From positions 1 through 23,749 of IMG/VR virus record IMGVR_UViG_3300046459_000159: 23,749 bases of DNA; one strand, given 5' to 3'. This stretch comes from a virus. The translations under genes were made by a program, and so were the position numbers. The notes below the pieces were generated by a model, which was not told the origin of the DNA, searched no databases, and saw only the letters and a program-made list of their open reading frames with translations. Positions 4,949 through 22,035 of this stretch are shown here, piece after piece; position 1 is the stretch's first letter, and the number at the start of each line of letters is the position of its first letter.

Positions 4949-5199
4949 CGCGGCTCACCTCCTTCGGTGTCCGCCGCGGTCGCCCGCCGGGTCTTGGTGG
5001 TGGTCTTGGGCTGCAGCGCCTCGTCGGCGGCAGGCTGCTCGGGTTCGTCCCTGACGGCGGTCCAGCCGTCGAGGAGCACGGGGTGTTCGTGGACCTCGCC
5101 GACCTCGACCCGGACGGGCGGCTCACTGGCGAAGGTCCAGGCACTGCCCGTGGTGTTGCGTTGACGGACGGGCGGCTGTTCGGTGGGGTCGGGGCTCAC
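4945..5199 (-). CDS. Small acidic/basic-tailed protein before the tail tube gene
   Basis: An 84-residue protein starting at GTG 5197-5199 with AGGAG upstream and ending in an ATGA overlap with the tail tube gene. I do not recognise a family. The middle is acidic (V-E-V-G-E-V-H-E-H) with a W-T-A-V-R-D-E-P patch. The last 20 residues are a basic, Thr/Ala-rich tail (K-T-T-T-K-T-R-R-A-T). The same plan, acidic body plus Lys/Thr/Ala tail, is seen in the 102-residue protein at 6455-6763. A role in tail assembly or as a translated leader for the tube gene is possible. Its direct coupling to the tube protein is the only firm clue. Confidence 0.6.
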   Translation of the reverse strand: MSPDPTEQPPVRQRNTTGSAWTFASEPPVRVEVGEVHEHPVLLDGWTAVRDEPEQPAADEALQPKTTTKTRRATAADTEGGEPR

Positions 5200-5218
5200 G
5201 AGGACTCCTGCGACAGGA

Positions 5219-5782: not shown

Positions 5783-6451
5783 TCATGTGCGCTGGTAGTT
5801 GCAGAGGATCTTCTCCGCCTGTGCTGCCAGCGCTCCCTGATCGTGGGAGAACTGCGTTCCGGCCGGGTCGATCTCACCCAGCACCAGCGACGCAGCTTGC
5901 AGCTTGCATGCGCGCCCCAAGTCGGCCGGCACGGTCGTGTAGCCGCCGTCGTAATTCACGCGGATCAGCGATCCGACGGGCAGGAAGGTGCCGAGAGTGA
6001 ACCACACGTGCCCCGAGTCGGCTTCGGCACCGATCAGTGACGTCGCGTTCATGACCTGGGATCCGCCATACGACCGCAGGATGGTCACCTGCAGGTTCGC
6101 GTAGGTCCACATGTCGGGGTAACGTCCCGCGAACTCGTTGAGCCACACGTGCCGGACCTGGTCACCGGCTCCGAGCGCGTTGGAGTACGACCGGCCGAGA
6201 GTCCCCTGGAGGTCCATGGGGAGGTTCGCGGCGTCGGTGTACTCGTCGGGGTCAATGCCGGTTGCCCGGTGCGTCTCGGGTAGGCCGGTGAAGGGCGCGA
6301 GTCGTCGCTCGCAGATGCCCTCGCACTGCCGGGTGGCCTCGATCATCAGCTGGTCGAGGGCCTCGGCGCTGTAGTCGCGGACCAGGTCGGCGAACTGCCC
6401 GGTCTGCATGTCCGCCGACGTAGCGAGCGGGACCGGGGAGTCCGCGGCCAT
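5783..6451 (-). CDS. Head-tail connector protein (adaptor-like)
   Basis: A 222-residue protein starting at ATG 6449-6451, with GAGGAG six bases upstream overlapping the previous gene's stop. The N-terminal helices (D-L-V-R-D-Y-S-A-E-A-L-D-Q-L-M-I-E-A-T, then C-E-G-I-C-E-R-R-L) and the later V-N-Y-D-G-G-Y-T-T-V-P-A-D-L motif, followed by a helical end (A-C-K-L-Q-A-A-S-L-V-L), match the plan of adaptor proteins of the gp6/gp15 type. 'Y-x-G-G-Y-x-x-x-P-x-D-L' is a recurrent signature in such connectors. These form a ring under the portal and link it to the neck. Position two genes after the capsid supports this. Confidence 0.65.
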   Translation of the reverse strand: MAADSPVPLATSADMQTGQFADLVRDYSAEALDQLMIEATRQCEGICERRLAPFTGLPETHRATGIDPDEYTDAANLPMDLQGTLGRSYSNALGAGDQVRHVWLNEFAGRYPDMWTYANLQVTILRSYGGSQVMNATSLIGAEADSGHVWFTLGTFLPVGSLIRVNYDGGYTTVPADLGRACKLQAASLVLGEIDPAGTQFSHDQGALAAQAEKILCNYQRT

Positions 6452-6824: not shown

Positions 6825-8201
6825 TCAGCTGGTCAGCGACGAGGAGACGCGGTTGATTCGGCCGGTGTACTTCGGCGCCCGCACCGCGAGTGCGCAGTCC
6901 GAGACGATGGCATACGGCATCTGATCCGGGGCGGCCGTCGTCGGAAAGACGTCCAGGCTTTCCAGCTCGCGGACGTAGGGGCGCAGGAGGAACTGGGGGT
7001 CGCGGGCGATGAGGTAGATGTTCTCCGACCCGGCCGCCTGCGGCTTCATGGCCGCGTTGGTGCCCACGTAGGCGGCCGGGATGCTGGCCGGGGCGGTGGA
7101 GCCGTTCTTCGGGGTGAGCTTCGCGCCGTCGTCCACGATGCTCGTGGTGAGGATCGGGGTGACGCCGTCGGCGGCGATACCGACGGTGGCGTCGACGTAG
7201 CCGAGGAACGTCTCGGTACCGGTCGCGGTGGACCGGAACACCTTGAACAGGTTGGGCTGGGCACCATCGTAGGCCGCCGGGGTGGAGAAGCTGAGCGTCA
7301 CGGTCGAGGTGGCGCCGGTGGTGACCTGAGAGACCTCGGTGGACGGCAGGATCTCGCCCTGGCGGGCGATGACCGGCGCGATCTGGTAGTAGTACGTAGC
7401 CGCCGCGAGGGTGCCGCCGGTGGTGGCGGTCGCGCTGGTGACGGCGCCCATCTGGTACGACCGGGCCGACAGGAACGAGCTGGTCACCATTGGGATGCCG
7501 CGGTAGGCCTGAACGTTCAGGCCAGCGGCGACCTCGGCGGGGCTGAGGTACCTCTGGTTGGCGATGGCGAGCTGCGCGATCCGCGACTCAGCGGTGGAGG
7601 ACATCACGAACATCCACCCCGGGCCGTTGATCTTCATGGCGGCCTGCTGCTCCACCATGTCGATGAGCTTGTCGAGCCAGCCCAGCGACAGCGACGCATT
7701 CGCGGCGTCCACGGCGTTCTGCGTACCGCCGGAGAACGTGGAGACGAGGCTGTCGAGGCCGTCGAACTGCGGGTAGCCGCCCAGCGACGTGGACCCGGTG
7801 TTGCCCCACAGGATGGCGTTCTCGATGTCCCAGTACAGGCCCTGGATGGACCCCTCGATCTCCTGCGCGCGCAGGTCCCCGGCGAGCCCGCGGGTGACGG
7901 CCTGCGCGTAGCCGGTGACGGCACCGACGGACTGCAGGTTGCGGATGGGGAACGAGTTCTGCACGTAGGTCGAGTTGGTGACCGGGCGGGCGCCGCCGTC
8001 GGACACGAACCCGCCGGCCGCGCGGGCGGTGCGCTGGTTGAAGTAGTAGACGCTGGAGTCCCACTTGCGGGACGGGATGGCCCGCACGAGGGGGGCGTAG
8101 CGCCGCTGGTACTCCAGCAGCATCGGGTCGACGATGGTCGGGGTGAGGGCGGCTGCGCCTGCGGCGGTCAGCGCCTCGCGGAGTTCGGCCTGGCTGGGCA
8201 T
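6825..8201 (-). CDS. Major capsid protein (HK97 fold)
   Basis: A 458-residue protein that forms the icosahedral head shell. ATG 8199-8201 is preferred, with AAAGGCGA upstream; an in-frame start 72 bases earlier would add an unlikely Pro-rich leader. N-terminal features are a short helix and L-L-E-Y-Q-R-R-Y-A-P-L-V-R. Typical capsid elements follow: a region around residues 120-150 (W-D-I-E-N-A-I-L-W-G-N-T, then G-Y-P-Q-F-D-G-L) and W-M-F-V-M-S-S-T-A-E near 196. The C-terminal part (I-Y-L-I-A-R-D-P-Q-F-L-L-R-P-Y-V) is also capsid-like. Residues about 254-365 look like an inserted fibronectin/Ig-like beta domain (A-A-A-T-Y-Y-Y-Q-I-A-P-V, L-F-K-V-F-R-S). There is no long N-terminal scaffold region, which agrees with scaffold-like sequence being fused to the upstream protease. 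Position between protease and connectors supports the call. Confidence 0.85.
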   Translation of the reverse strand: MPSQAELREALTAAGAAALTPTIVDPMLLEYQRRYAPLVRAIPSRKWDSSVYYFNQRTARAAGGFVSDGGARPVTNSTYVQNSFPIRNLQSVGAVTGYAQAVTRGLAGDLRAQEIEGSIQGLYWDIENAILWGNTGSTSLGGYPQFDGLDSLVSTFSGGTQNAVDAANASLSLGWLDKLIDMVEQQAAMKINGPGWMFVMSSTAESRIAQLAIANQRYLSPAEVAAGLNVQAYRGIPMVTSSFLSARSYQMGAVTSATATTGGTLAAATYYYQIAPVIARQGEILPSTEVSQVTTGATSTVTLSFSTPAAYDGAQPNLFKVFRSTATGTETFLGYVDATVGIAADGVTPILTTSIVDDGAKLTPKNGSTAPASIPAAYVGTNAAMKPQAAGSENIYLIARDPQFLLRPYVRELESLDVFPTTAAPDQMPYAIVSDCALAVRAPKYTGRINRVSSSLTS

Positions 8202-8236
8202 GGTGTCGCCTTTCGGCAGTGGTGGGTATGACGAAG

Positions 8237-8250
8237 CCCCGCGCACGGGG
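8237..8250 (-). promoter_or_regulatory. Small hairpin in the capsid leader
   Basis: ccccg and cgggg pair around a four-base loop in the 131-base gap between the protease and capsid genes. The gap holds no credible gene. The hairpin is short, and it is listed because it repeats the pattern of hairpins in the late gene gaps. Confidence 0.25.
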
Positions 8251-8332
8251 TGTGGGCGGGGCGGCGTGACCATCTCTGCCGAGCGGCACCAGCGATGGAC
8301 TGGCGGTCAGGGTGAAGCTGAGCGGGGGTGCG

Positions 8333-10589: not shown

Positions 10590-12062
10590 TCAGGTGAACC
10601 AGTTGGCGAAGTGCGAAAGGGAAATCGAGGCCGAGATACAGCACCTGCACGCCGGATGAAGGGGCATTCGGGGTGCATCGCCGATCTGCCACGGGCTGCC
10701 CGCTTCGGCGTCGAGGCAGCTAGGACACACCCTGCCGTCGCCAGCCGAAATGATGTCGACCTGCTGCACGCCCTCGGATCGGTACAGGCTCAGCGCGCCC
10801 TCATCTGCTGCGGTGGTCATGGCCCAGTCGACGACGAATGCGACCGATTCCACGTCCGTGTCGGCGAGGACGTTCATCGCGTCCTCGATCATCTGGTCGC
10901 GGCTGGCCCCGTCTTCGGCGTCCTGAGCGAGTACCCGACCGAGGTCGGCTGCAGCCCGGTCGATGGTGCGGCCGAGCCACCCGCCCGTGTCGGCCCAGAT
11001 TTCGTCAAGGCGTTCCAGGGAGCGGTAGGCGTCGTCGAAGGCGATGTTCCAGTCGAGGCCGATGTGGTTGGCGCGCTCGGCGGCGATGGCGACCGCGTTG
11101 ACCATGCCCTCCGCCCGGCCGGCTGCGATGGCGTCCCTCAGTGCGGTGCGCAGGACATCCCATCCGGCACCAGCCGCGGCGGCGAGTGCGTGCAGCATGG
11201 CCTTTGCTGCCGCGAGGGCTTCAGCGCGGATGCTGGGCTTGTCGTGGTCGGCTTCGGTGAGTCCGGCCTGCTGCCGGAACCGGTCGACCATCGCGGCGAC
11301 CGCATCCCGGTCGATGAGGTCTCCCCACGCGGCGGCCACTAGCGGTACGTGCTTGGCCTGCTGCTCCTCTCGGCGCTGGAAGAGCAGCGCCCACATGCCC
11401 TCCAGCTTCCCAAGGTCGATGGTGACTTCGAGGATGCGCGGGTCGTCAGCGTGTTCGACGGCGAGGTGAACGGCGGCGGTGCAGGCTGCCCGTACCCGCT
11501 CGGTCATCGGACCGCCGGAGACGGCCCAACCGGCTGCGAATGCCTCGCGGGCCGGATCCTCGATCGGATGCTCGGGGGCTGCGAACGGGAGGTCGGTGCG
11601 ATCGTTGCCGTGGACGACCGACAGGGCCGCGAACTCGACCGGTGTGGACGCGATTCGGTCGACGGGTGCGTCCGCATCCGGGTCGATGTACGACTGCGTG
11701 AGATGGCTGGTGTAGCCGTGGTCGCGCGGTATGTCGATCCCTGCGGCGTTCAGCGCTTCCAGAAGGTCCCGACGGAGGTCTTCGAGGTCCGCCGAGTCGA
11801 TGAGGGCGACGGCGACATCCATCTCGCCGCCGGTGAACCGGGCATGGCCGGCGACACTGCCCGCGATCGATGCCCGGTCGGCGAGTGCCTTCACTGCGGC
11901 GAGCAGCCGCTCCGGGTCGACGTCGCCAGCGCTGCCGCAATAGGCGACGGTGACGTGCAGGTCACTCACGGGAAGTCCGCCATCGACTGCGAGGAGCGCG
12001 GCAACGTCGGATGGCGGATAGAGGGCGATCATGCAGCCGTCGGAGAAGTCCGGGGATGCCAC
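10590..12062 (-). CDS. 2H phosphoesterase fused to MuF-like minor head protein
   Basis: A 490-residue two-domain protein. GTG 12060-12062 is preferred because GAGGGGG lies five bases upstream; GTG 12068 directly abuts that site. Residues 8-160 form a 2H phosphoesterase (2'-5' RNA ligase/cyclic phosphodiesterase superfamily), with both signature motifs: H36-V-T-V and H120-L-T-Q. Residues about 190-430 are long helices typical of MuF/SPP1 gp7 minor head proteins. The end (about 435-475) carries the MuF zinc-like signature G-D-G-R-V-C-P-S-C, then P-L-H-P-A-C-R-C. MuF proteins bind the portal and are packaged in the head. The extra enzyme could act on RNA ends or cyclic nucleotides after injection. 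Its place right after the portal and its small genes is the normal MuF position. Confidence 0.8.
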   Translation of the reverse strand: MASPDFSDGCMIALYPPSDVAALLAVDGGLPVSDLHVTVAYCGSAGDVDPERLLAAVKALADRASIAGSVAGHARFTGGEMDVAVALIDSADLEDLRRDLLEALNAAGIDIPRDHGYTSHLTQSYIDPDADAPVDRIASTPVEFAALSVVHGNDRTDLPFAAPEHPIEDPAREAFAAGWAVSGGPMTERVRAACTAAVHLAVEHADDPRILEVTIDLGKLEGMWALLFQRREEQQAKHVPLVAAAWGDLIDRDAVAAMVDRFRQQAGLTEADHDKPSIRAEALAAAKAMLHALAAAAGAGWDVLRTALRDAIAAGRAEGMVNAVAIAAERANHIGLDWNIAFDDAYRSLERLDEIWADTGGWLGRTIDRAAADLGRVLAQDAEDGASRDQMIEDAMNVLADTDVESVAFVVDWAMTTAADEGALSLYRSEGVQQVDIISAGDGRVCPSCLDAEAGSPWQIGDAPRMPLHPACRCCISASISLSHFANWFT

Positions 12063-12078
12063 GCTCACCCCCTCGCGA

Positions 12079-12309: not shown

Positions 12310-12401
12310 CCGACGCGCTTCTTGATGAGCGGCAACACGTCCTTGGCGCGCAGCGGATGGTTCGGAGGATCGGGCGGCAGCGGTTCAGGCGGCACGCTCA
12401 T
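12306..12401 (-). CDS. 31-residue micro-protein between portal and the Cys/His-rich gene
   Basis: A short frame with ATG 12399-12401 inside the end of the portal gene and AGGAGG five bases upstream, one of the best ribosome sites in the window. The protein is proline-rich at first (P-P-E-P-L-P-P-D-P-P-N-H-P-L) and ends with K-D-V-L-P-L-I-K-K-R-V. It ends in an ATGA overlap with the next gene. The strong ribosome site and tight linkage argue that it is translated. It may be a true small protein or a leader that couples portal translation to the next gene. Function unknown. Confidence 0.6.
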   Translation of the reverse strand: MSVPPEPLPPDPPNHPLRAKDVLPLIKKRVG

Positions 12402-13953
12402 CGACACCTCCTGGCAACGTGGCCAGCGCCTCCCGCAGCCGCGCCCTGTACCGGGCGTGCAGCGACTCGACGGGCGGCGGCTCCTTCTCCGGCTCAGCTG
12501 GCTCCTCCGATTGCCCCGGTGGCGCGTTGCCCGCGAACGCGGCGAGCTGGGGCGGCACGGGTGCGGGCTCGGGCTTCTCCACCGCGATCGGCTCGCCGTG
12601 CTCCGGCGCGGCCGGCTCCAGAGCGGTGCCGCGGAGCCTGTTCGCGATGAACGCCTTGGATGCGGCGTCCATGTCGGCCCACTTCACCAGGTTGGTGCGG
12701 TCGATCAGGACGGGCTGGTCGCCTCCGTCGACGGGGGGTTCGCCGATGTCGGCTCGGGCCCGGTTGAGGGTCCATTCGCCGTTGCGGATCCGCATGTCCC
12801 GGATGTCCTCAACGGTCTTGGAGTCTCGCATGTCGACGTCACGGAACTTGAGCTTCCAGCCCTCGACGCCGAAGCCGTTCTTCGCGAGGTGGAAGTTCAG
12901 GGCCTCCAGTACGAGCTCGGCGAGGGGCTGGCAGGTGTTAACCATGAACGTGCGGTCCTGCGCTTCCCCGGTGCCGCCGCCGAGGTTGCCGGACTCGATG
13001 ATGCCGACCTTGGATGGCGGAACCCCGTAGGCGGCGATGATCTCGTCACGCTTCTGGTTGAGGAACTGCAGGTAGTCCATGGTGCGGGACTGCGAAAGTT
13101 CGTTGACCCCGGCGCCCCCCTTGGTGTTGATCGGGTTGCCGATGTTGCGCGGCCCGATGTTGCGCTGCTGGTACTGGGCGTTCCAACGGTTGATGTCCGA
13201 CGGGGAAGCGCCCGCCGGGTGATCCACGTGGAGGACCGGGGGGCAGCCCTTCCGGAAGATCTCCTTCGAGGTCGCGGCGGAGAACAGCCACGACACGATC
13301 GGCAGCATCGCCGCCTGCGTTGGGCTGACGCCGAACACCCCGGACCGCGGCGAGTCCAGCGAGATGTGGATGACGTCGCGCGGTTCGAACGTCGCCCGCT
13401 GGCCGAGTTCGGTGACCTGCACGTAACTGGTGATCGTGCCGTGCTCATCAGCGATCGGCAGCATCGACGGGCAGTCCAGCGAGTACAGGGCGACGGGCTG
13501 CTGGCCGAGCCAGACGACCTCGATGAACGCGTCACCGAACACGAGCAGGTCGGTGATGACGCCGCGGAGGATCTGCCGGACGTTCTCCCGCGGGTTGCAG
13601 TAGGCCAGCATTCGCTCCAGCAGGAGCACCTGCTGTGGCTTGTCCGGCTGCTCCTCGTCGCCCTCGCCGTTGTCGTTGTCCCAGTCGGTGACGAGGCCGC
13701 CCGCGGTGATGGTGCGGGCGATGGCGTTCACGGACGCCCACGACCACGGGCAGGCAAGGTACGCCTCGTAGAGCTGGTTGAGCATCGAACGGCGGTCGGA
13801 CTGGGTGGCCGCGCCGATGCCCTGATTGGACTCGGTCAGGCCACCCGGGCTGATCCCGTACTCGAAGCCCGAGCGCTCCGGCAGCTTCGCCGATGCCGTC
13901 TCCAGCACCTCGGTCTCCGACCGCAGACTGTTCCACCAGGTGCGCAGACTCAC
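12385..13953 (-). CDS. Portal protein
   Basis: A 522-residue protein that forms the dodecameric ring through which DNA enters the head. It starts at GTG 13951-13953 in a four-base overlap with the terminase stop. Portal hallmarks include W-S-W-A-S-V-N-A-I-A-R-T-I near residue 71, the central block Y-L-Q-F-L-N-Q-K-R-D-E-I, and A-Y-G-V-P-P-S-K-V-G, which is the classic HK97/phage_portal signature, followed by G-N-L-G-G-G-T-G-E-A. The C-terminal 80 residues are Pro/Glu-rich and end with a charged helix, common in actinophage portals. Length is normal for the family. Its location directly after terminase confirms the call. Confidence 0.92.
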   Translation of the reverse strand: MSLRTWWNSLRSETEVLETASAKLPERSGFEYGISPGGLTESNQGIGAATQSDRRSMLNQLYEAYLACPWSWASVNAIARTITAGGLVTDWDNDNGEGDEEQPDKPQQVLLLERMLAYCNPRENVRQILRGVITDLLVFGDAFIEVVWLGQQPVALYSLDCPSMLPIADEHGTITSYVQVTELGQRATFEPRDVIHISLDSPRSGVFGVSPTQAAMLPIVSWLFSAATSKEIFRKGCPPVLHVDHPAGASPSDINRWNAQYQQRNIGPRNIGNPINTKGGAGVNELSQSRTMDYLQFLNQKRDEIIAAYGVPPSKVGIIESGNLGGGTGEAQDRTFMVNTCQPLAELVLEALNFHLAKNGFGVEGWKLKFRDVDMRDSKTVEDIRDMRIRNGEWTLNRARADIGEPPVDGGDQPVLIDRTNLVKWADMDAASKAFIANRLRGTALEPAAPEHGEPIAVEKPEPAPVPPQLAAFAGNAPPGQSEEPAEPEKEPPPVESLHARYRARLREALATLPGGVDERAA

Positions 13954-15314
13954 GGGACGTTCACCGTCCCCCCAGCGCGCGGCGCCTCGTCTTCATCGAA
14001 CCACCAGGCGTCGTCGCTCGGCGCGGACTCGGACGGGCGCACGGCCATCGTCGGCCCGAGCGGCTTCAGAACCTCGGCGCTGGAGGCTGGCACGGCCTCG
14101 TCGTCGAGGATGACGAACTCTGGACCGGTGCCGAGGTTGGCCAACAGATACCTGACGGCGTCGGCAAGGTGATCGTCTGCGGTGGTGTCAGCGTCTTCCG
14201 GGTCGCCCTTGGTGGCGTGCGGTAGATCCGACAGTTCCCGATAGAGGTCGGGGCACGTCGTGAAGATGTGCATTTTCGGGCAGGTGTCCCAGCCCTGCGC
14301 CCGGTGATGCGGGCAGGCCGGCGCCTCGGCAAGGTAGGAGCGGACCCGCTGCCAGCCGTTGACGCGGGATCCCGCTCCCTTGCCGGCGGGTGCCAGGTGC
14401 ACGCCGTTGTCGGCATATACCGCGGCGATGGGTTTGGCGTCGCCGCGGGTGGCCCACATGGCGTCGTCGGCGTACCGCACGGCGATGTGCTCACCAGCCG
14501 CTTCGGCGGCGAGGATGCTCTGGGCCTGCTCTGCTTCTCCGACGCCGCGCCGGTATATCTCGCGGTAGACCCAGACGCGCCCGTCTTCGTCGACCGCGGC
14601 CCACAGGACGGCCCAGGGGGCGGCGAAGCCCCAGTCGATGCCGTTGTACCGCTTCCATGTGGCGGGCAGCGTGATCGGTTCGATGACGTGCCGGTCGCGC
14701 TTGAGCTGGAACATCTGGCCTTGGAACACGTCCCAGTCCCCGTCCAGGAATGCGGCCCGCAACTTTTCGGGCAGCGCCTTGAGGTCGGCGGCGTATTCAG
14801 GGTTGACGTGGGGGTTGTCGGACAGCTTCGACGGGATGAAGCGCACCGTGCGCCCGCGCTCATCGACGATGACCTTGCTGCCGTAGCCAGTGGGCTTGAT
14901 GTAGCGGGTCTTCACCGCGCCGTGTCCCGGTCCGCCCGGGTTGGTGCCAGAGCGGATGCCGAGAACGGGGATGTCGCGGCGTCCGGACCGCAGCCGTGAT
15001 TCGAGGAAGCTACACACGTCGGGCGGGGTGAGGGTCCGCTCGTCGAAGATAAGCAGCTGGTACTGGCCGCCCTGCCGGCGTGTGGCGTCCTGCACGGTCT
15101 CGGCGTACCGAAACATGATCAGGCTGCCGTTGGGGAACCGGAGCTCGTACTCGGTACCGTTCCAGCGAGCCCCGAGGTCTTTGGCGAAGTTGAGGTTCAC
15201 TAGTTCGGCGATCAGTGACTCTTTGAGTTCGCCGTAGGTGCGGCGGAAAGCCCCGACGCGCAGCCCCGGGTAGCGGACGCATTCCCGGATGGCGTGCGCG
15301 GTCAGGGCCCGGCT
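13950..15314 (-). CDS. terL: Terminase large subunit, main frame (N-terminus out of frame)
   Basis: The ATP-driven DNA packaging motor and nuclease. This frame carries 454 residues from just after the Walker A lysine to the end. It begins S-R-A-L-T-A-H-A-I, then F-R-R-T-Y, then Y-Q-L-L-I-F-D-E (Walker B), R-S-G-T-N-P-G-G-P-G (motif III-like coupling region), R-Y-N-G-I-D-W-G-F (first RNase H-like nuclease aspartate), Y-A-D-D-A and D-D-H-L-A-D-A-V-R-Y near the end. The first in-frame start codon is GTG at about 15200, which would omit the P-loop. The missing 51 residues lie in the other frame at 15302-15466. Joined by a -1 shift at 15314-15320, the product is a normal 505-residue terminase. The stop overlaps the portal start. 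Confidence 0.85.
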   Translation of the reverse strand, partial: SRALTAHAIRECVRYPGLRVGAFRRTYGELKESLIAELVNLNFAKDLGARWNGTEYELRFPNGSLIMFRYAETVQDATRRQGGQYQLLIFDERTLTPPDVCSFLESRLRSGRRDIPVLGIRSGTNPGGPGHGAVKTRYIKPTGYGSKVIVDERGRTVRFIPSKLSDNPHVNPEYAADLKALPEKLRAAFLDGDWDVFQGQMFQLKRDRHVIEPITLPATWKRYNGIDWGFAAPWAVLWAAVDEDGRVWVYREIYRRGVGEAEQAQSILAAEAAGEHIAVRYADDAMWATRGDAKPIAAVYADNGVHLAPAGKGAGSRVNGWQRVRSYLAEAPACPHHRAQGWDTCPKMHIFTTCPDLYRELSDLPHATKGDPEDADTTADDHLADAVRYLLANLGTGPEFVILDDEAVPASSAEVLKPLGPTMAVRPSESAPSDDAWWFDEDEAPRAGGTVNVP

Positions 15315-16641: not shown

Positions 16642-19107
16642 TCAGACGGCATACCAGCCCCACGCGGTGCCGTTGTAGAGGGCCTGGACGCGCAGGGTTA
16701 CGCCGGTAGCGACGGTGGCGGTGGTGGCCCCGGTGCCGCTGGTCGTGTAGATGAGTTGGCTGCTGGTCGTCCCGACGGTGAGGGTGTTGGCGCCGACGTT
16801 CTTGAAGACGTACTCGACGGGGTTGTAGTCGGCGGCCGGGAGCGTCCCGGTGAACCCGGCGGACGTGGTATCGCAGACCAGGGTGCGGTCGATGGGGCTG
16901 CCCGTGAACGTCGTCGTCTTCCGCTTGATGGCGCGCGGTACCTGGCCGTTGACGAGCTCGAGACCGGTCGGATTCGACACGCTGACACCGGACTCGGTGA
17001 ACAGGCCCGTGAGAACGACCCGACCGAGCGCGGCATTCATGGCCCCGGCCGAGTTGCCAGCCACGTTGGGCGTGCTGGATTCGGTGGAGATCCCGATGTA
17101 GATCGTAGGACCGACACCTTGGGAGCCAGGGCCGACGATGTACAACTCGTGCGTGCACGCCTCGATGGACGCCGAGATGACGTTCATGGCATGGACGGAG
17201 CCGACCGATCCCGCATAGGTGCCAACGGCGCACAGGCCAGCCCAGCAGTACAGGGCCATGTAGCGATCTGTCACGGCGTGTTCGGTGAGGAACATCGCGT
17301 AGGTGTAGCCGCCGCCGCAGGAGACGTTGTTGGCGACAACGTAGTCGTTGTTACCGGGCGCTGGCAGCAGGAGCCCGACCGACAACCCGGTGCCGAAGAC
17401 GCCCGGCGAAGAGTAGTCCGTGGATGGGCTCGCGACGGTGCCGAGCGTGCCGTAGCCGACGTTCTCCACATGCGCGTTCGCGCAGCCCCACAGGTTCAGC
17501 GCCCCATAAGTGAGGCCGTAGGCGGAGTGCGTGGTGAGGATCGCCAGATTCTTGACGACCACCATCAGGTTGCTGAAGTTCGCGTTCACGCCGTACCCGG
17601 AGGCCTCATTGGGCCCGCTGATCACAGCCGGGTTGCCGTGCGCGTTGATATCAGTGATCTGAGCGCCGGTCGACGCGTAGACGCCGGCGGAGATGATGCA
17701 CGACCCGGTCAGCTGCGGCACCCCTTGCAGCCAGTGCCGCACCGCCGCCGCGCCGTCACCCACGCCGACGAACGCGAGTTCCTTCTTGCCTGCCGAGGCC
17801 GCGTAGACGCCGAACGCGGTCTGCCCGTTGCCGCTCTTGGACGCGTTGAGGGCTCCGGCGTGCATGTACGGAAGCGGCGGATAGAACACCTCTGCGTAGC
17901 TGTGGCCTGCTGCCAGGTACGCCTCGGCGGCGTCAGTGGCAGCCTGGAAGGCCGTACTGTCGCTGGTGCCCCACACGACCTTTGCGCCCGTGACGGTGCC
18001 GCCGGAGGCGTTCACCAGCGACAGGGTGATCTGCGTTGAGCTTTGCCGGGACTGTGCGACCGCGACCAGGCTGGTGACGCCGAGGGCGCCCGCCCCGTTG
18101 ACGATGACGGTCTTGCCGACGATGTCGGACTCGAACTGGCCTGAGGCGCTGGTGAGGATCGCAGATCCGGTGCTCATCGCTCCGTCGGCGACCACCTTGG
18201 AGTCGCCGACGGCCCCGTATTTGGTGACGTCGAAGATCCACGGCGTTGAGGTGAAGCGACTGTCGTTGCCAGCTGCCACTGTGCCGGCGGTCGTGCCTAC
18301 CGGCAGGACCGTGCCGATGGCTCCGGATGCCGAGCGGGCCTTGAGGACGCCCCCCTCGGCATATACCACCGCACCCGATGCCGGGTTGCTGCTAGGCACG
18401 GTCGCGGCGTTCGGGACGTGGACGACTCCGACGCCGCTGCCGAAGTCTGTGCCGCCGTCGAGGAGTGAAAGGTTCGGCCCGGTCACCCCGGGCTGGATCC
18501 GCAGGACGGGCAGGCCGTTGGCCGAATCGACGAGGTACAGGTCCTGGCTGCCGGGCTGCATCTGCCAGGCGAACCGGTCGATGCCCGCGGTCCTGAAGGC
18601 GTAGGCGGCGTAGTTGGTGGTGGCGCCACGGTCGACGGCGTTGATGGCCGTGCCGGTGGAGTCGACGACGACGTTGCCGTCGGCGATCGTGACGTTGCCG
18701 GTGACGGTGCCGCCGCCGGCGAGGGCGAGGTACTTGGTGACGGCGTCGGCGATGGCTGCGGCCTGTGCGGCTGCTGCTGCTCCGGACGCGTCGAACGCGC
18801 TGCTCGCCTGGGTGGCCGCGCTGCCGAGGCCGAGGCTATTGCGGGATGTGGCGGCGCTCTGGACGTCGGACAGGTTGTTCGCGGCGAGCAGCGCCCCGGT
18901 GACACCGCCACCGAACGTGATGCCGCTACCCGGCCACGCGCCGCTGGCCTTAGGTCCGTAGAGGACCGCGGAGGTGGGGTAGCTGGTGGTGTTGATCCAG
19001 TAGTCGCCGTCGATGCCATCGGAGGACAGCGGGGTGCGGGCCCCGTTGAGGACGGCGTTGCCTCGGGGGCCTTGGACGCCGGTCGGAGAGACGATGACGT
19101 TCGGCAC
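16642..19107 (-). CDS. Tailspike / tail fibre with beta-helix module
   Basis: An 821-residue receptor-binding or capsule-degrading tail protein. GTG 19105-19107 is preferred because AGGGGG lies five bases upstream, overlapping the previous stop; GTG 19113 abuts that site. The N-terminus has a short collagen-like V-Q-G-P-R-G and G-D-Y-W-I-N, then an Ala-rich helical stretch (about 75-125), then G-G-G-T-V-T-G-N-V-T-I, a motif common in phage fibres. D-V-T-K-Y-G-A-V-G-D (293-302) is the start signature of pectate-lyase-like beta-helix domains in tailspikes. Many Gly/Ser/Thr/Val strands follow to about residue 740, and the end is beta-rich (F-K-N-V-G-A-N-T-L-T-V-G). Catalytic residues cannot be assigned. 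It lies before terminase, away from the tape measure. Confidence 0.75.
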   Translation of the reverse strand: MPNVIVSPTGVQGPRGNAVLNGARTPLSSDGIDGDYWINTTSYPTSAVLYGPKASGAWPGSGITFGGGVTGALLAANNLSDVQSAATSRNSLGLGSAATQASSAFDASGAAAAAQAAAIADAVTKYLALAGGGTVTGNVTIADGNVVVDSTGTAINAVDRGATTNYAAYAFRTAGIDRFAWQMQPGSQDLYLVDSANGLPVLRIQPGVTGPNLSLLDGGTDFGSGVGVVHVPNAATVPSSNPASGAVVYAEGGVLKARSASGAIGTVLPVGTTAGTVAAGNDSRFTSTPWIFDVTKYGAVGDSKVVADGAMSTGSAILTSASGQFESDIVGKTVIVNGAGALGVTSLVAVAQSRQSSTQITLSLVNASGGTVTGAKVVWGTSDSTAFQAATDAAEAYLAAGHSYAEVFYPPLPYMHAGALNASKSGNGQTAFGVYAASAGKKELAFVGVGDGAAAVRHWLQGVPQLTGSCIISAGVYASTGAQITDINAHGNPAVISGPNEASGYGVNANFSNLMVVVKNLAILTTHSAYGLTYGALNLWGCANAHVENVGYGTLGTVASPSTDYSSPGVFGTGLSVGLLLPAPGNNDYVVANNVSCGGGYTYAMFLTEHAVTDRYMALYCWAGLCAVGTYAGSVGSVHAMNVISASIEACTHELYIVGPGSQGVGPTIYIGISTESSTPNVAGNSAGAMNAALGRVVLTGLFTESGVSVSNPTGLELVNGQVPRAIKRKTTTFTGSPIDRTLVCDTTSAGFTGTLPAADYNPVEYVFKNVGANTLTVGTTSSQLIYTTSGTGATTATVATGVTLRVQALYNGTAWGWYAV

Positions 19108-19116
19108 GGGCACCCC

Positions 19117-19910: not shown

Positions 19911-20687
19911 TCAGCGGCGGTAACGGAGGTGGTTGCCACCGCCCCAGGCGCGGCGGAGGGCGTCTTGGATCTCTCGCTGCACGGCGTCGCGCAGGTCGCG
20001 TTCGTTGAGGGCGCCGCCGTGGACGTGAAGGGTGACCATCACGGGCTGCGTGTCCGGGTCGGGCTCCATGGGGGCCCCGGCCTTGTCGCACGGCCAGTGC
20101 CAGGTAGAAGCGGTTCGCGCTGCGGGGTCCTCTTCAACGGCGTCGGCGAATGCTACGCCCGAAGCGCGGTCCAGTAGGTCGAGGTTCAGTCGTGTGCCGT
20201 CGGTCTGGATGCCGCCCACGCGTGCCGGGAAGCAGTGAAGAGGGCCGCCGCCTTCTGCCCACAGGTAGTGAACAGTCTCCCCAACCTCGGGGACGTCACT
20301 CGGCGACGCCACACCGAGGTCGGTGCGCTGCTCGTTGATGGCCTTCTCGCCGCGCGCCACCTCTCCGGAGATAATGCGGCGGACCTGGTCAACGAGCGAG
20401 ACGAGCGCATAGGTGACGTGATCGGGCACGACGTCGACCTGCTGCGGGCTCCAGTTGAGCTGTTCGGCCGCCGCGTTGTAGAGGGCGGCCTTCGGGGAGC
20501 CTGTGGACGCGAACGGTACGCCAGTGGGGCGCTCGCTGTGGTGGGCCGCATCGATGTGCCTGCGAACTTCGGAGGCGATCGCACCGTCGGGGATGCGGAG
20601 GTTGCGTTCGTCGCCGCCGTCGATGAGGACGCTCAGCGAGGAGTCGCAGACGGGGCACAGGACGCGGATCGCGCGAATGTCGGTCAT
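19911..20687 (-). CDS. Phage protein with N-terminal CxxC and His pair, unknown function
   Basis: A 258-residue protein starting at ATG 20685-20687 with GGAG six bases upstream. The N-terminus has a zinc-finger-like C-P-V-C (11-14) followed by H-I-D-A-A-H-H about 30 residues later. The middle includes a helical block (A-L-Y-N-A-A-A-E-Q-L, V-V-P-D-H-V-T-Y-A-L-V-S-L) and a beta segment with V-G-E-T-V-H-Y-L-W-A-E and G-G-P-L-H-C-F-P-A-R-V. The C-terminus has V-M-V-T-L-H-V-H-G-G and L-N-E-R-D-L-R-D-A-V-Q-R-E-I, then ends G-G-G-N-H-L-R-Y-R-R. I do not recognise the family. It follows the noncoding block and is the first gene of the fibre/terminase operon. Confidence 0.7.
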   Translation of the reverse strand: MTDIRAIRVLCPVCDSSLSVLIDGGDERNLRIPDGAIASEVRRHIDAAHHSERPTGVPFASTGSPKAALYNAAAEQLNWSPQQVDVVPDHVTYALVSLVDQVRRIISGEVARGEKAINEQRTDLGVASPSDVPEVGETVHYLWAEGGGPLHCFPARVGGIQTDGTRLNLDLLDRASGVAFADAVEEDPAARTASTWHWPCDKAGAPMEPDPDTQPVMVTLHVHGGALNERDLRDAVQREIQDALRRAWGGGNHLRYRR

Positions 20688-20710
20688 GCAGGTCTCCAGG
20701 GTGTGCGGTA

Positions 20711-20999
20711 GCCCCGGCGCCTGGAACGCCGGGGCCGCCTACCCGCCGGGATCAACGGCGGGCGTCGGGGGTGTTGGGGCCCGCTGCCCGGCGGGCTCGG
20801 TGAAGTACCGGGCAGCGGGGTTCCGGCACGCTCGGGGGGACGTGAGCGCCGGTTGTGTCCTCGCGGCCAGGAGCGACCCGCCTCGGCGCTACGACCAGCC
20901 GCGAGGAGTGGAGGGTGGGCCGGGGACGCGCCGCGTGTCTCCCGGCCCACAGGGCGAGCGCCTCCGCAAGACGCCGCCCAGCCCCGGAACCAGCGGGGC
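20711..20999 (-). other. Gene-free block with six perfect inverted repeats (candidate structured RNA)
   Basis: The 318-base gap 20688-21005 has no credible gene. Perfect inverted repeats are: 20711-20719 with 20727-20735 (9 bp, 7-base loop); 20742-20748 with 20756-20762 (7 bp); 20780-20791 with 20808-20819 (12 bp, 16-base loop); 20858-20867 with 20898-20907 (10 bp, 30-base loop); 20916-20924 with 20941-20949 (9 bp); 20981-20986 with 20994-20999 (6 bp, 7-base loop). A further 6-bp match, 20845-20850 with 20885-20890, would make a pseudoknot with the 10-bp stem. Strand is inferred from flanking leftward genes. Alternatives: tandem terminators, a packaging/cos region or an origin. Confidence 0.5.
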
Positions 21000-21005
21000 A
21001 GTCAG

Positions 21006-21224
21006 TTAGGCCGCCGCGTAGGAGCGGCGAGCCTTCTCCCGGGTGGAAGCTTCAGCCCGGAGAACATCCATGGCGCGGTAGCGGGGCCAGCCCTTGCGGT
21101 TGACCGGAGTGAGCTTTCCGCGCCGCTTCCACTGGTAGATGACGTCCGGAGTGACGCCGGCAGCCTCGGCTGCTTCGGCTGTCGTCCACGTGATGCGCTC
21201 GAGGTCCCCGTCGATGGTGACCAT
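21006..21224 (-). CDS. Small helix-turn-helix DNA-binding protein
   Basis: A 72-residue protein. ATG 21222-21224 is chosen because GGGAGG lies five bases upstream; a longer in-frame reading to 21284 would run through the terminator hairpin. It has W-T-T-A-E-A-A-E-A-A-G-V-T-P-D-V-I-Y-Q-W (13-32), a classic helix-turn-helix of the MerR/excisionase kind, then K-R-R-G-K-L-T-P-V and W-P-R-Y-R-A-M-D-V-L as wing and final helix, and a basic tail. Such proteins act as excisionases, repressors or activators. It sits between a strong terminator and the structured block, so it may control the late operon. The exact role cannot be read from sequence. Confidence 0.75.
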   Translation of the reverse strand: MVTIDGDLERITWTTAEAAEAAGVTPDVIYQWKRRGKLTPVNRKGWPRYRAMDVLRAEASTREKARRSYAAA

Positions 21225-21246
21225 GGGCGCCTCCCTTGGTACGCAA

Positions 21247-21274
21247 AAGGCCCCGGACGTGAGCCCGGGGCCTT
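21247..21274 (-). terminator. Intrinsic terminator after the zinc-ribbon gene
   Basis: Arms aaggccccgg (21247-21256) and ccggggcctt (21265-21274) form a perfect 10-bp stem with an eight-base loop. On the minus strand the stem is followed by TTTT, and the plus strand also has a short T-containing end, so it may work both ways. It separates the 21325-22035 gene from the helix-turn-helix gene. Confidence 0.75.
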
Positions 21275-21324
21275 CTGTAAGCATGGTTGTTGTGGCCCAA
21301 ATCTGACACGCCTGTGGATCAGAG

Positions 21325-22035
21325 TCAAGCCGCTCTCAGAACCTGGCATTCAGAGGCGAGCTTCTGCGTGTGTTCGAGGTACTCGCCGGGCGTCAGCAGC
21401 AACTGACAGGCGATGTTCCGGCACTCGATGTAGTCGTCGCCGTCCTTACGGAACAAGGTCAGCAACTGGCAGCGCGGGCACGGGATCCGGTGATGCTCGA
21501 GCCGGTCGTCCCGCCGCGTGAACCGTTCCGCCGCCCGGTGCCAGGTGTGGATCTGTGCGGCCGGATTACCCGACAGTCGGTCGTGTGGTTCGTCCGCCAG
21601 GGGATGCTCGACGAGAGCCCAGTCGAGGTGCGCGGCGAGGAACCGGGTGCTGGCGGTCACGGTCACGCCCTCGATGCGGTGCGCCGGCCGGGTATTCAGA
21701 CGCCGCAGTTCACGAATGTCGTCCTCGAGCGTGAGCATTCCCTCGAGGATGTGGTCGGTCATGAGCCGGGAGGACTGGCCGGGCCATGCGGGGATGTGGA
21801 CGCGGCCGATCGTGCCGGTCGTCTTGGCGGGGGTGCCATTGACGGCCTCCAGCCAGATCGCGGCAACGAGCTCGGGAAGTTCGGCGAGTTCGGCGCGGGC
21901 CCGGTCGGTGCAGCGGGAGCAGTGGGTGGGCTGGCCCCATGTGGGGGTGAGGTCGTGTGGGGTGCCGTGATCGGCGAGCTTCTGCTCGGCGGTGCGCCAG
22001 GCGTTGTTGTGGGATCCGGGGCAGGCGAGCGGCAT
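21325..22035 (-). CDS. Zinc-ribbon phage protein of unknown function
   Basis: A 236-residue protein. ATG 22033-22035 has GGAGG six bases upstream, so it is preferred over an ATG 45 bases earlier. It has an N-terminal C-P-G-S-H and H-C-S-R-C (about residue 45), helical middle sections (L-A-E-L-P-E-L-V-A-A-I-W-L, D-H-I-L-E-G-M-L-T-L-E-D-D-I) and a C-terminal zinc ribbon: C-P-R-C-Q then, 16 residues on, C-R-N-I-A-C. It ends L-T-P-G-E-Y-L-E-H-T. This architecture is common in Streptomyces phages, where it is labelled hypothetical. DNA or RNA binding is likely from the ribbon. It is followed by a strong terminator and preceded by an 87-base gap containing a weak 7-bp inverted repeat. Confidence 0.75.
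   Translation of the reverse strand: MPLACPGSHNNAWRTAEQKLADHGTPHDLTPTWGQPTHCSRCTDRARAELAELPELVAAIWLEAVNGTPAKTTGTIGRVHIPAWPGQSSRLMTDHILEGMLTLEDDIRELRRLNTRPAHRIEGVTVTASTRFLAAHLDWALVEHPLADEPHDRLSGNPAAQIHTWHRAAERFTRRDDRLEHHRIPCPRCQLLTLFRKDGDDYIECRNIACQLLLTPGEYLEHTQKLASECQVLRAA

Follow-up and report, generated by a model that had tools for sequence, protein, structure and literature searches.

The window, a virus record of 23,749 bases with a G+C content of 68% that was analysed over its whole length, carries its late genes on the minus strand, as judged by PHROG and Pfam assignments, and these include the genes for the terminase large subunit, the portal and the major capsid protein (Table 1). 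A MerR-like helix-turn-helix gene is followed on this strand by a gap of 318 nt (20688-21005) and then by gene 1, which heads an operon reaching the terminase and portal genes and whose protein has no match in Pfam or PHROG. The first-pass annotation had described a gene-free block between a helix-turn-helix gene and the first gene of this operon, and both the block and its placement are borne out. The six perfect stems that it listed, of 9, 7, 12, 10, 9 and 6 bp, are all present, the fifth being 10 bp rather than 9. No tRNA was found in the window, and Rfam 15 (4227 models), run against the whole window, gives no match at the gathering threshold; the best sub-threshold match in the gap is the speF leader (E 0.018, 17.8 vs 37 bits), which covers hairpin B alone. 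Also on the minus strand, 2'-5' RNA ligase-like and head-morphogenesis-like domains are fused in one protein (10593-12068).

Table 1. Genes, leader parts, stems and upstream hairpins of the window.
Feature	Position	Strand	Basis
MerR-like helix-turn-helix gene, 5' of the gap	21006-21224	-	PF13411 above cut-off; PHROG 2474
Upstream hairpins H1-H3	20910-21005	-	module common to L004 (90%) and L084 (75%)
Upstream hairpin H4, 10 bp	20858-20907	-	module common to L005, L095 and L071
Upstream hairpin H5	20825-20857	-	common to L005 only
Upstream hairpin H6, 12 bp	20780-20819	-	module common to L005, L084 and L095
Leader: hairpins A and B and Shine-Dalgarno strand, directly 5' of gene 1	20688-20764	-	covariance-model matches, covariation
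Hairpin A: 7-bp stem, 7-nt loop UUGAUCC; palindrome GAUC at 20750-20753	20742-20762	-	
Hairpin B: loop UUCCAGG (20720-20726) above a perfect 9-bp stem that weaker pairs extend at its base	20707-20739	-	
Gene 1 Shine-Dalgarno strand CCUGGAG, complementary to loop B (20720-20726)	20694-20700	-	
Gene 1, 258 aa, first after the leader	19911-20687	-	
Terminase large subunit, about 5.5 kb 3' of the leader	13950-15200	-	PHROG 2
Portal	12385-13953	-	
Major capsid	6825-8273	-	
Perfect stem, 9 bp	20711-20719/20727-20735		
Perfect stem, 7 bp	20742-20748/20756-20762		
Perfect stem, 12 bp	20780-20791/20808-20819		
Perfect stem, 10 bp	20858-20867/20898-20907		
Perfect stem, 10 bp (9 in the earlier annotation)	20915-20924/20941-20950		
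Stem, 6 bp	20981-20986/20994-20999		read from sequence
6-bp match	20845-20850/20885-20890		read from sequence

Compared with 100 dinucleotide shuffles per strand, the whole gap lies outside the shuffled distribution on both strands, folding better than every control with a z of -3.85 on the minus strand and -3.04 on the plus strand. When the minus strand is scanned as 315 windows of 150 nt, the five around the gap take ranks 4, 9, 10, 27 and 66, and three places, one of them within a long coding frame, fold with a lower z than the gap. The density of stems had been called exceptional for the window; the gap does fold beyond its shuffles, but equally unusual folding is found elsewhere, and thermodynamics as the sole argument was set aside as suggestive for the gap but not unique to it. 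The lowest minus-strand values, both outside the gap, are -5.7 near 6151 and -5.2 near 18301, the latter place falling inside an 823-aa frame (16642-19113). That the stems are chance products of a G+C-rich gap is compatible with these unusual windows and with the mean folding energy of the shuffled gap, which is already -168.9 kcal/mol. The 77 nt 5' of gene 1 give on their own a z of just -2.28, with 3 of 200 shuffles folding equally well, so that strong evidence for a leader is comparative and not thermodynamic. Tandem terminators, one of the roles offered for the block, receive no support from a consensus scan, which finds no U-tailed terminator in 20600-21350; the scan is insensitive, missing an obvious hairpin at 21247-21276, and stems without a U-run could therefore still affect transcription. 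This strong hairpin has TTTT behind it on the minus strand, lies 5' of the MerR-like gene and resembles a terminator for the preceding gene.

Relatives were gathered from 80 terminase-neighbour loci and 7 MerR-neighbour loci. The contig L002/L005 encodes a relative of the gene 1 protein and is 92% identical to the window over the last 221 nt of the gap, while the genes before and after the element differ. The part adjoining gene 1 recurs in L002, L084, L080 and L015 with four different first genes, and a pattern scan added L092 and L094 and, among genome contigs, L095 and L096, the latter identical in sequence to L092. A plain descriptor scan for a hairpin loop complementary to the start-site region returned true members along with many chance matches, and covariance models were chosen for this reason: R1, built from 8 sequences, and R2, built from 21 members, which score 96.2 and 88.8 bits, respectively, at 20691-20764 of the window. 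With 12 candidates scored per genome, the genome counts are lower bounds. In the genus of Streptomyces aidingensis, R1 finds matches at E 1e-3 in at least 14 of 392 genomes, at least 10 of them with places above 45 bits, and R2 exceeds 50 bits in at least 5 of 394 genomes of the family (one already known) and at least 7 of 394 genomes of the class (two already known). Further viral contigs came from two extra pattern scans. The total is 45 matches representing 42 distinct members, from 42 of 46 sources comprising phage contigs and actinomycete genomes; the sources L212, L213, L219 and L224 have no model match at E 1e-6. The leader RNA is thus recurrent in many actinobacterial phages and prophages.

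Matches below about 45 bits were excluded, including L114-L117 and 23 of the 30 places of the R2 family scan, and sixteen low-scoring matches that were inspected were judged to be non-members, many of them ordinary terminators. Rfam 15 reports only tRNA genes over twenty member loci, none overlapping the element. Ten named phage records and one plasmid contain no strong model match, the best reaching 27.3 bits in phage VWB. When the leaders of two members were compared by BLAST with named phages, no match spanned 80% of the query (E 0.6 and 0.2 at best), and phage Dubu, the better BLAST match of the two, has no model match at E 0.01.

Hairpin A of the members has 7 bp with a loop of 7-8 nt and is followed, after a spacer that measures 2 nt in the window, by hairpin B with up to 13 bp; the Shine-Dalgarno strand lies about 6 nt beyond. 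The model-fitted alignment of the 42 members, A6, has 97.8% of its stem cells paired, a value to which none of 500 shuffles is comparable and which no slid register comes near. Both sides have changed in 17 of the 20 stem pairs, comprising all seven pairs of hairpin A and 10 of the 13 of hairpin B. As A6 leans towards the structure, a sequence-only alignment of 40 members, A7, was made, omitting L201 and L223, which have no pseudoknot, the duplicates L216 and L217, and the second copy in L162. RNAalifold, run on A7 with no structure supplied, recovers both hairpins, and of their 18 pairs 15 have changed on both sides. Compensatory changes in hairpins A and B, and in the pairing of loop B with the Shine-Dalgarno strand, across unrelated contexts refute chance stems for A and B, and an accidental origin is left with almost no probability. 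The first-pass annotation had named two findings that would speak against its reading, stem energies within the shuffled distribution and no compensatory changes in relatives; the gap folds outside that distribution, and the covariance check across relatives finds such changes in both hairpins and the pseudoknot.

The pairing between loop B and the Shine-Dalgarno strand was encoded in neither R1 nor R2. Loop B pairs with the Shine-Dalgarno strand of its own gene over at least 5 nt in 40 of the 42 members, the pseudoknot being absent from L201 and L223. Own combinations average 6.57 Watson-Crick pairs against 4.26 crosswise, with none of 10,000 permutations as good; a run on 26 members with a cruder hairpin finder, which missed hairpin B in L094, L120 and L162, gave 5.62 against 4.03, also with 0 of 10,000. 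The two strands change together, from UUCCAGG/CCUGGAG in the window to CUCCUGG/CCAGGAG in L105, CUCCCGG/CCGGGAG in L107, CCUCUAG/CUAGAGG in L199 and CCGAG/CUCGG in L137. In A7, six of the seven pseudoknot pairs have changed on both sides (4 of 500 shuffles are as high) and 87.6% of the pseudoknot cells are paired (0 of 500), with 73.8% still pairing when the register is slid by one column. The central pair takes all four Watson-Crick forms (AU 12, UA 9, CG 4, GC 3) and is unpaired in 12 of the 40 rows in that register. Of the five measures one, the count of pseudoknot pair types, does not rise above the shuffles (284 of 500). The start codon lies 4-8 nt 3' of the pseudoknot in 32 of 40 members, and L109 has no open frame of 70 aa behind the element. 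The conserved pairing therefore includes the Shine-Dalgarno strand, with the start codon at ribosome-binding distance. From these comparisons, the supported pseudoknot of the window is that of 20694-20700 with 20720-20726. It looks sterically tight, as about 6 nt must span up to 13 bp, so that it may compete with the complete stem B, as would suit a switch.

The same features bear on whether the element acts on transcription instead, with B as a terminator or pause hairpin, A and B together as an attenuator or, like put of phage HK022, a processive antitermination site for the late operon, and the Shine-Dalgarno complementarity as secondary. Hairpin B does resemble a G+C-rich terminator stem, many of the low-scoring model matches are ordinary terminators, and the element stands at the head of long operons; however, no U-run follows B in the window, and the loop pairs specifically with the Shine-Dalgarno strand of its own gene, which makes a transcription-level leader improbable. 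A site acting as DNA, in which the nested inverted repeats are recognised, as an operator, cos or pac, by a regulator or the packaging apparatus and the symmetry serves a protein, also appears unlikely. Its location upstream of terminase genes would suit such a site, and hairpin A with TGATCA or TAGCTA is a DNA palindrome as well, but one pseudoknot strand is the ribosome site itself, with the start codon close behind. Overall, G-U cells outnumber A-C cells by 51 to 29, although the cells are not independent of one another. This excess, seen in stem A (10 to 3) and in the pseudoknot (28 to 14), favours symmetry at the level of RNA over that of DNA; stem B (13 to 12) lacks it, as a DNA site would allow. 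Two copies of the element occur within the single contigs L218 and L222, and in the genomes G392 and G490. As the element keeps its place relative to the ribosome site and start codon, and a contig may carry two copies, a packaging site (cos or pac) in particular is unlikely on the sequence comparisons.

The position of the element in the genome is more constant than the gene behind it. A terminase large subunit gene lies 3' on the same strand, 0.76-7.7 kb away, in 27 of 33 elements, and further reading revealed three more terminases, in L084, L204 and L208, where in L208 it is the first gene that encodes the terminase. Two of the remaining elements are on sequences of 1.2 kb, and the third, L206, is a degenerate copy with no recognised terminase. 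As the window-type phage loci were collected by searching for terminase, MerR or gene 1, their set favours terminase neighbours; of the 23 elements that only the RNA model brought up, 21 have a terminase 3', and L133, found by a pattern scan, is not among these 23. In this tally, to which the contigs L210-L224 do not belong, L092 equals L133 in sequence, L195 and L196a are near-identical, and the pairs L126a/b and L196a/b each share a terminase. The members include terminases both of the type found in the window (PHROG 2) and of PHROG 9. Among the proteins scanned, the first gene after the element has a Pfam HNH (nuclease) domain in 12 of 33, and others have HTH, Dam, IS605 OrfB or MUG113 domains, the last of which we take to be a GIY-YIG relative; many have no Pfam match. 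As the first genes are unrelated, the RNA goes with position and not with one gene. The leader role that had been among the suggestions for the whole block is thus upheld for the 77 nt adjoining gene 1, where compensatory changes and loop/Shine-Dalgarno pairing are found before many different genes.

Loop A carries a self-complementary tetranucleotide in all 42 members, GAUC in 36 and AGCU in 6. All four bases differ between the two, and no intermediates are seen among the 42, which suggests selection for self-complementarity. The two leader copies in each of L218 and L222 are one of GAUC and one of AGCU type; the copies in G392 and G490, two or more in each, are of GAUC type. The AGCU-type leader of L222 (503-580) precedes a gene with an IS605 OrfB-type helix-turn-helix domain. 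The palindrome suggests, from its sequence, that loop A may serve a loop-loop contact between two RNAs or contact with a symmetric protein. Pairing of loop A with its own flanks shows a weak excess (own 4.71 vs cross 4.53, permutation p 0.018). This pairing was set aside, loop type showing no link to AGCT or GATC in the flanks: AGCT occurs in those of 4 of 6 AGCU-type against 14 of 36 GAUC-type members, and GATC in 4 of 6 against 24 of 36.

The upstream stems of the gap behave differently from the leader and, in a comparison resting on few relatives, are a mosaic of exchangeable intergenic hairpins, with each module held in common with its own set of loci (Table 1). Modules that adjoin in the window are separated in L084 by a tRNA, a tRNA-like stretch recognised by eye and a small open frame. 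The 6-bp match that had been proposed to interlock with the 10-bp stem is present, with one side in the loop of H4, but a longer counterpart was seen by eye in L005 only, and the match competes with hairpin H5; a pseudoknot at this place is weakly supported. The upstream hairpins are most simply interpreted as transcript-end or RNA-stability structures. Other loci have a different common hairpin in the place of H1-H3 (L013, L015, L021, L087 and L088; TCGTCCGCCG...GAGGGTC...CGGCGGA, by eye), so that in many of these phages a strong hairpin of one kind or another seems to occupy this site next to the MerR-like gene. In the interval that leads from the MerR-like gene to the first late gene, either tRNA genes or tRNA-like stretches were noted by eye in L084 (5356-5560), L087, L004 (about 5140-5210), L095 and L062, the tRNA-like stretches having a T-arm-like GGTTCRANYCC within an acceptor-like stem, and that of L087 following the MerR-like gene. 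ARAGORN calls one tRNA in L084, and Rfam places tRNA genes 5' of the members L111, L135 and L162.

Taken together, the data make it likely that the 77 nt act in cis as a leader RNA, hiding the ribosome-binding site and so controlling how the first gene of the packaging operon is translated. Hairpin B and the pairing of its loop with the Shine-Dalgarno strand, for which covariation is the evidence, would form a pseudoknot that hides the ribosome-binding site and lowers translation of the first gene, and perhaps through it of the operon. Hairpin A, with its GAUC or AGCU loop 2 nt upstream of B, is a likely docking site that would receive a signal, and its partner, which may be a phage or host protein or a second copy of the RNA, would open or stabilise the leader. 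While the leader stays unopened, read-through transcripts would yield little of the gene 1 product, which in relatives is often a nuclease, and the ribosome site would open late in infection. The leader thus probably controls when the packaging gene block is translated. A more specific version, to which we give a low probability, is that the leader counts its own copies, the kissing of palindromic A loops serving to sense mRNA dose with no protein or ligand required. Dimers formed at a high level of late transcript would shift hairpin B and free the Shine-Dalgarno strand, and the packaging operon would be translated once its transcripts exceed a threshold.

The leader defines an RNA family, supported by covariation and unmatched in Rfam 15, at the head of packaging operons with differing terminases and first genes. 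If it gates translation, it would constitute a post-transcriptional checkpoint on the late genes of actinobacterial phages. Weinberg and colleagues reportedly surveyed structured RNAs in 2017. No title or opening of an abstract in the literature covered, which lies mostly outside subscription journals, describes the element. A term search of the main texts of two structured-RNA surveys (PMC2864571, PMC11109978) finds neither "terminase" nor "HNH". Among the first genes scanned, no metabolic theme is apparent downstream of the leader.

Several known systems share parts of this arrangement. The put RNAs of HK022 are processive antitermination RNAs in which two adjacent hairpins head phage transcripts, and the leader is like them, by description only, in having two adjacent hairpins at the transcript head; we know of no pairing with the ribosome site in put. 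Like the preQ1 translational riboswitch (PMC9410914), the element studied here is a pseudoknotted leader that partly overlaps the Shine-Dalgarno sequence, but it differs in its extra hairpin with a palindromic loop, its phage context and its lack of an Rfam gathering-score match. The leader of T4 gene 32 likewise has an mRNA pseudoknot 5' of a phage start codon that acts in translational control; that pseudoknot, however, lies about 67 nt upstream and nucleates gp32 binding, whereas here the Shine-Dalgarno strand is part of the pseudoknot (sections of PMC3014915). The same sections of this 2010 review regard the T4 gene 32 pseudoknot as possibly the sole viral example in autoregulation of translation, so that the leader, if it gates translation, would join the few viral mRNA pseudoknots in translational control, of which perhaps one was known to that review. 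Homing endonuclease genes of T4-type phages, namely I-TevI, I-TevII, I-TevIII, segB and mobE of Aeh1, are silenced by RNA structures over their ribosome sites, according to the portions of PMC2988022 that deal with them. The likeness is a phage mRNA structure that hides a ribosome-binding site, often that of a nuclease gene, and the difference is that those are hairpins of single genes, whereas a two-hairpin pseudoknot family is found here before many packaging-operon genes. The leader would work like these T4 examples but constitutes a separate conserved family.
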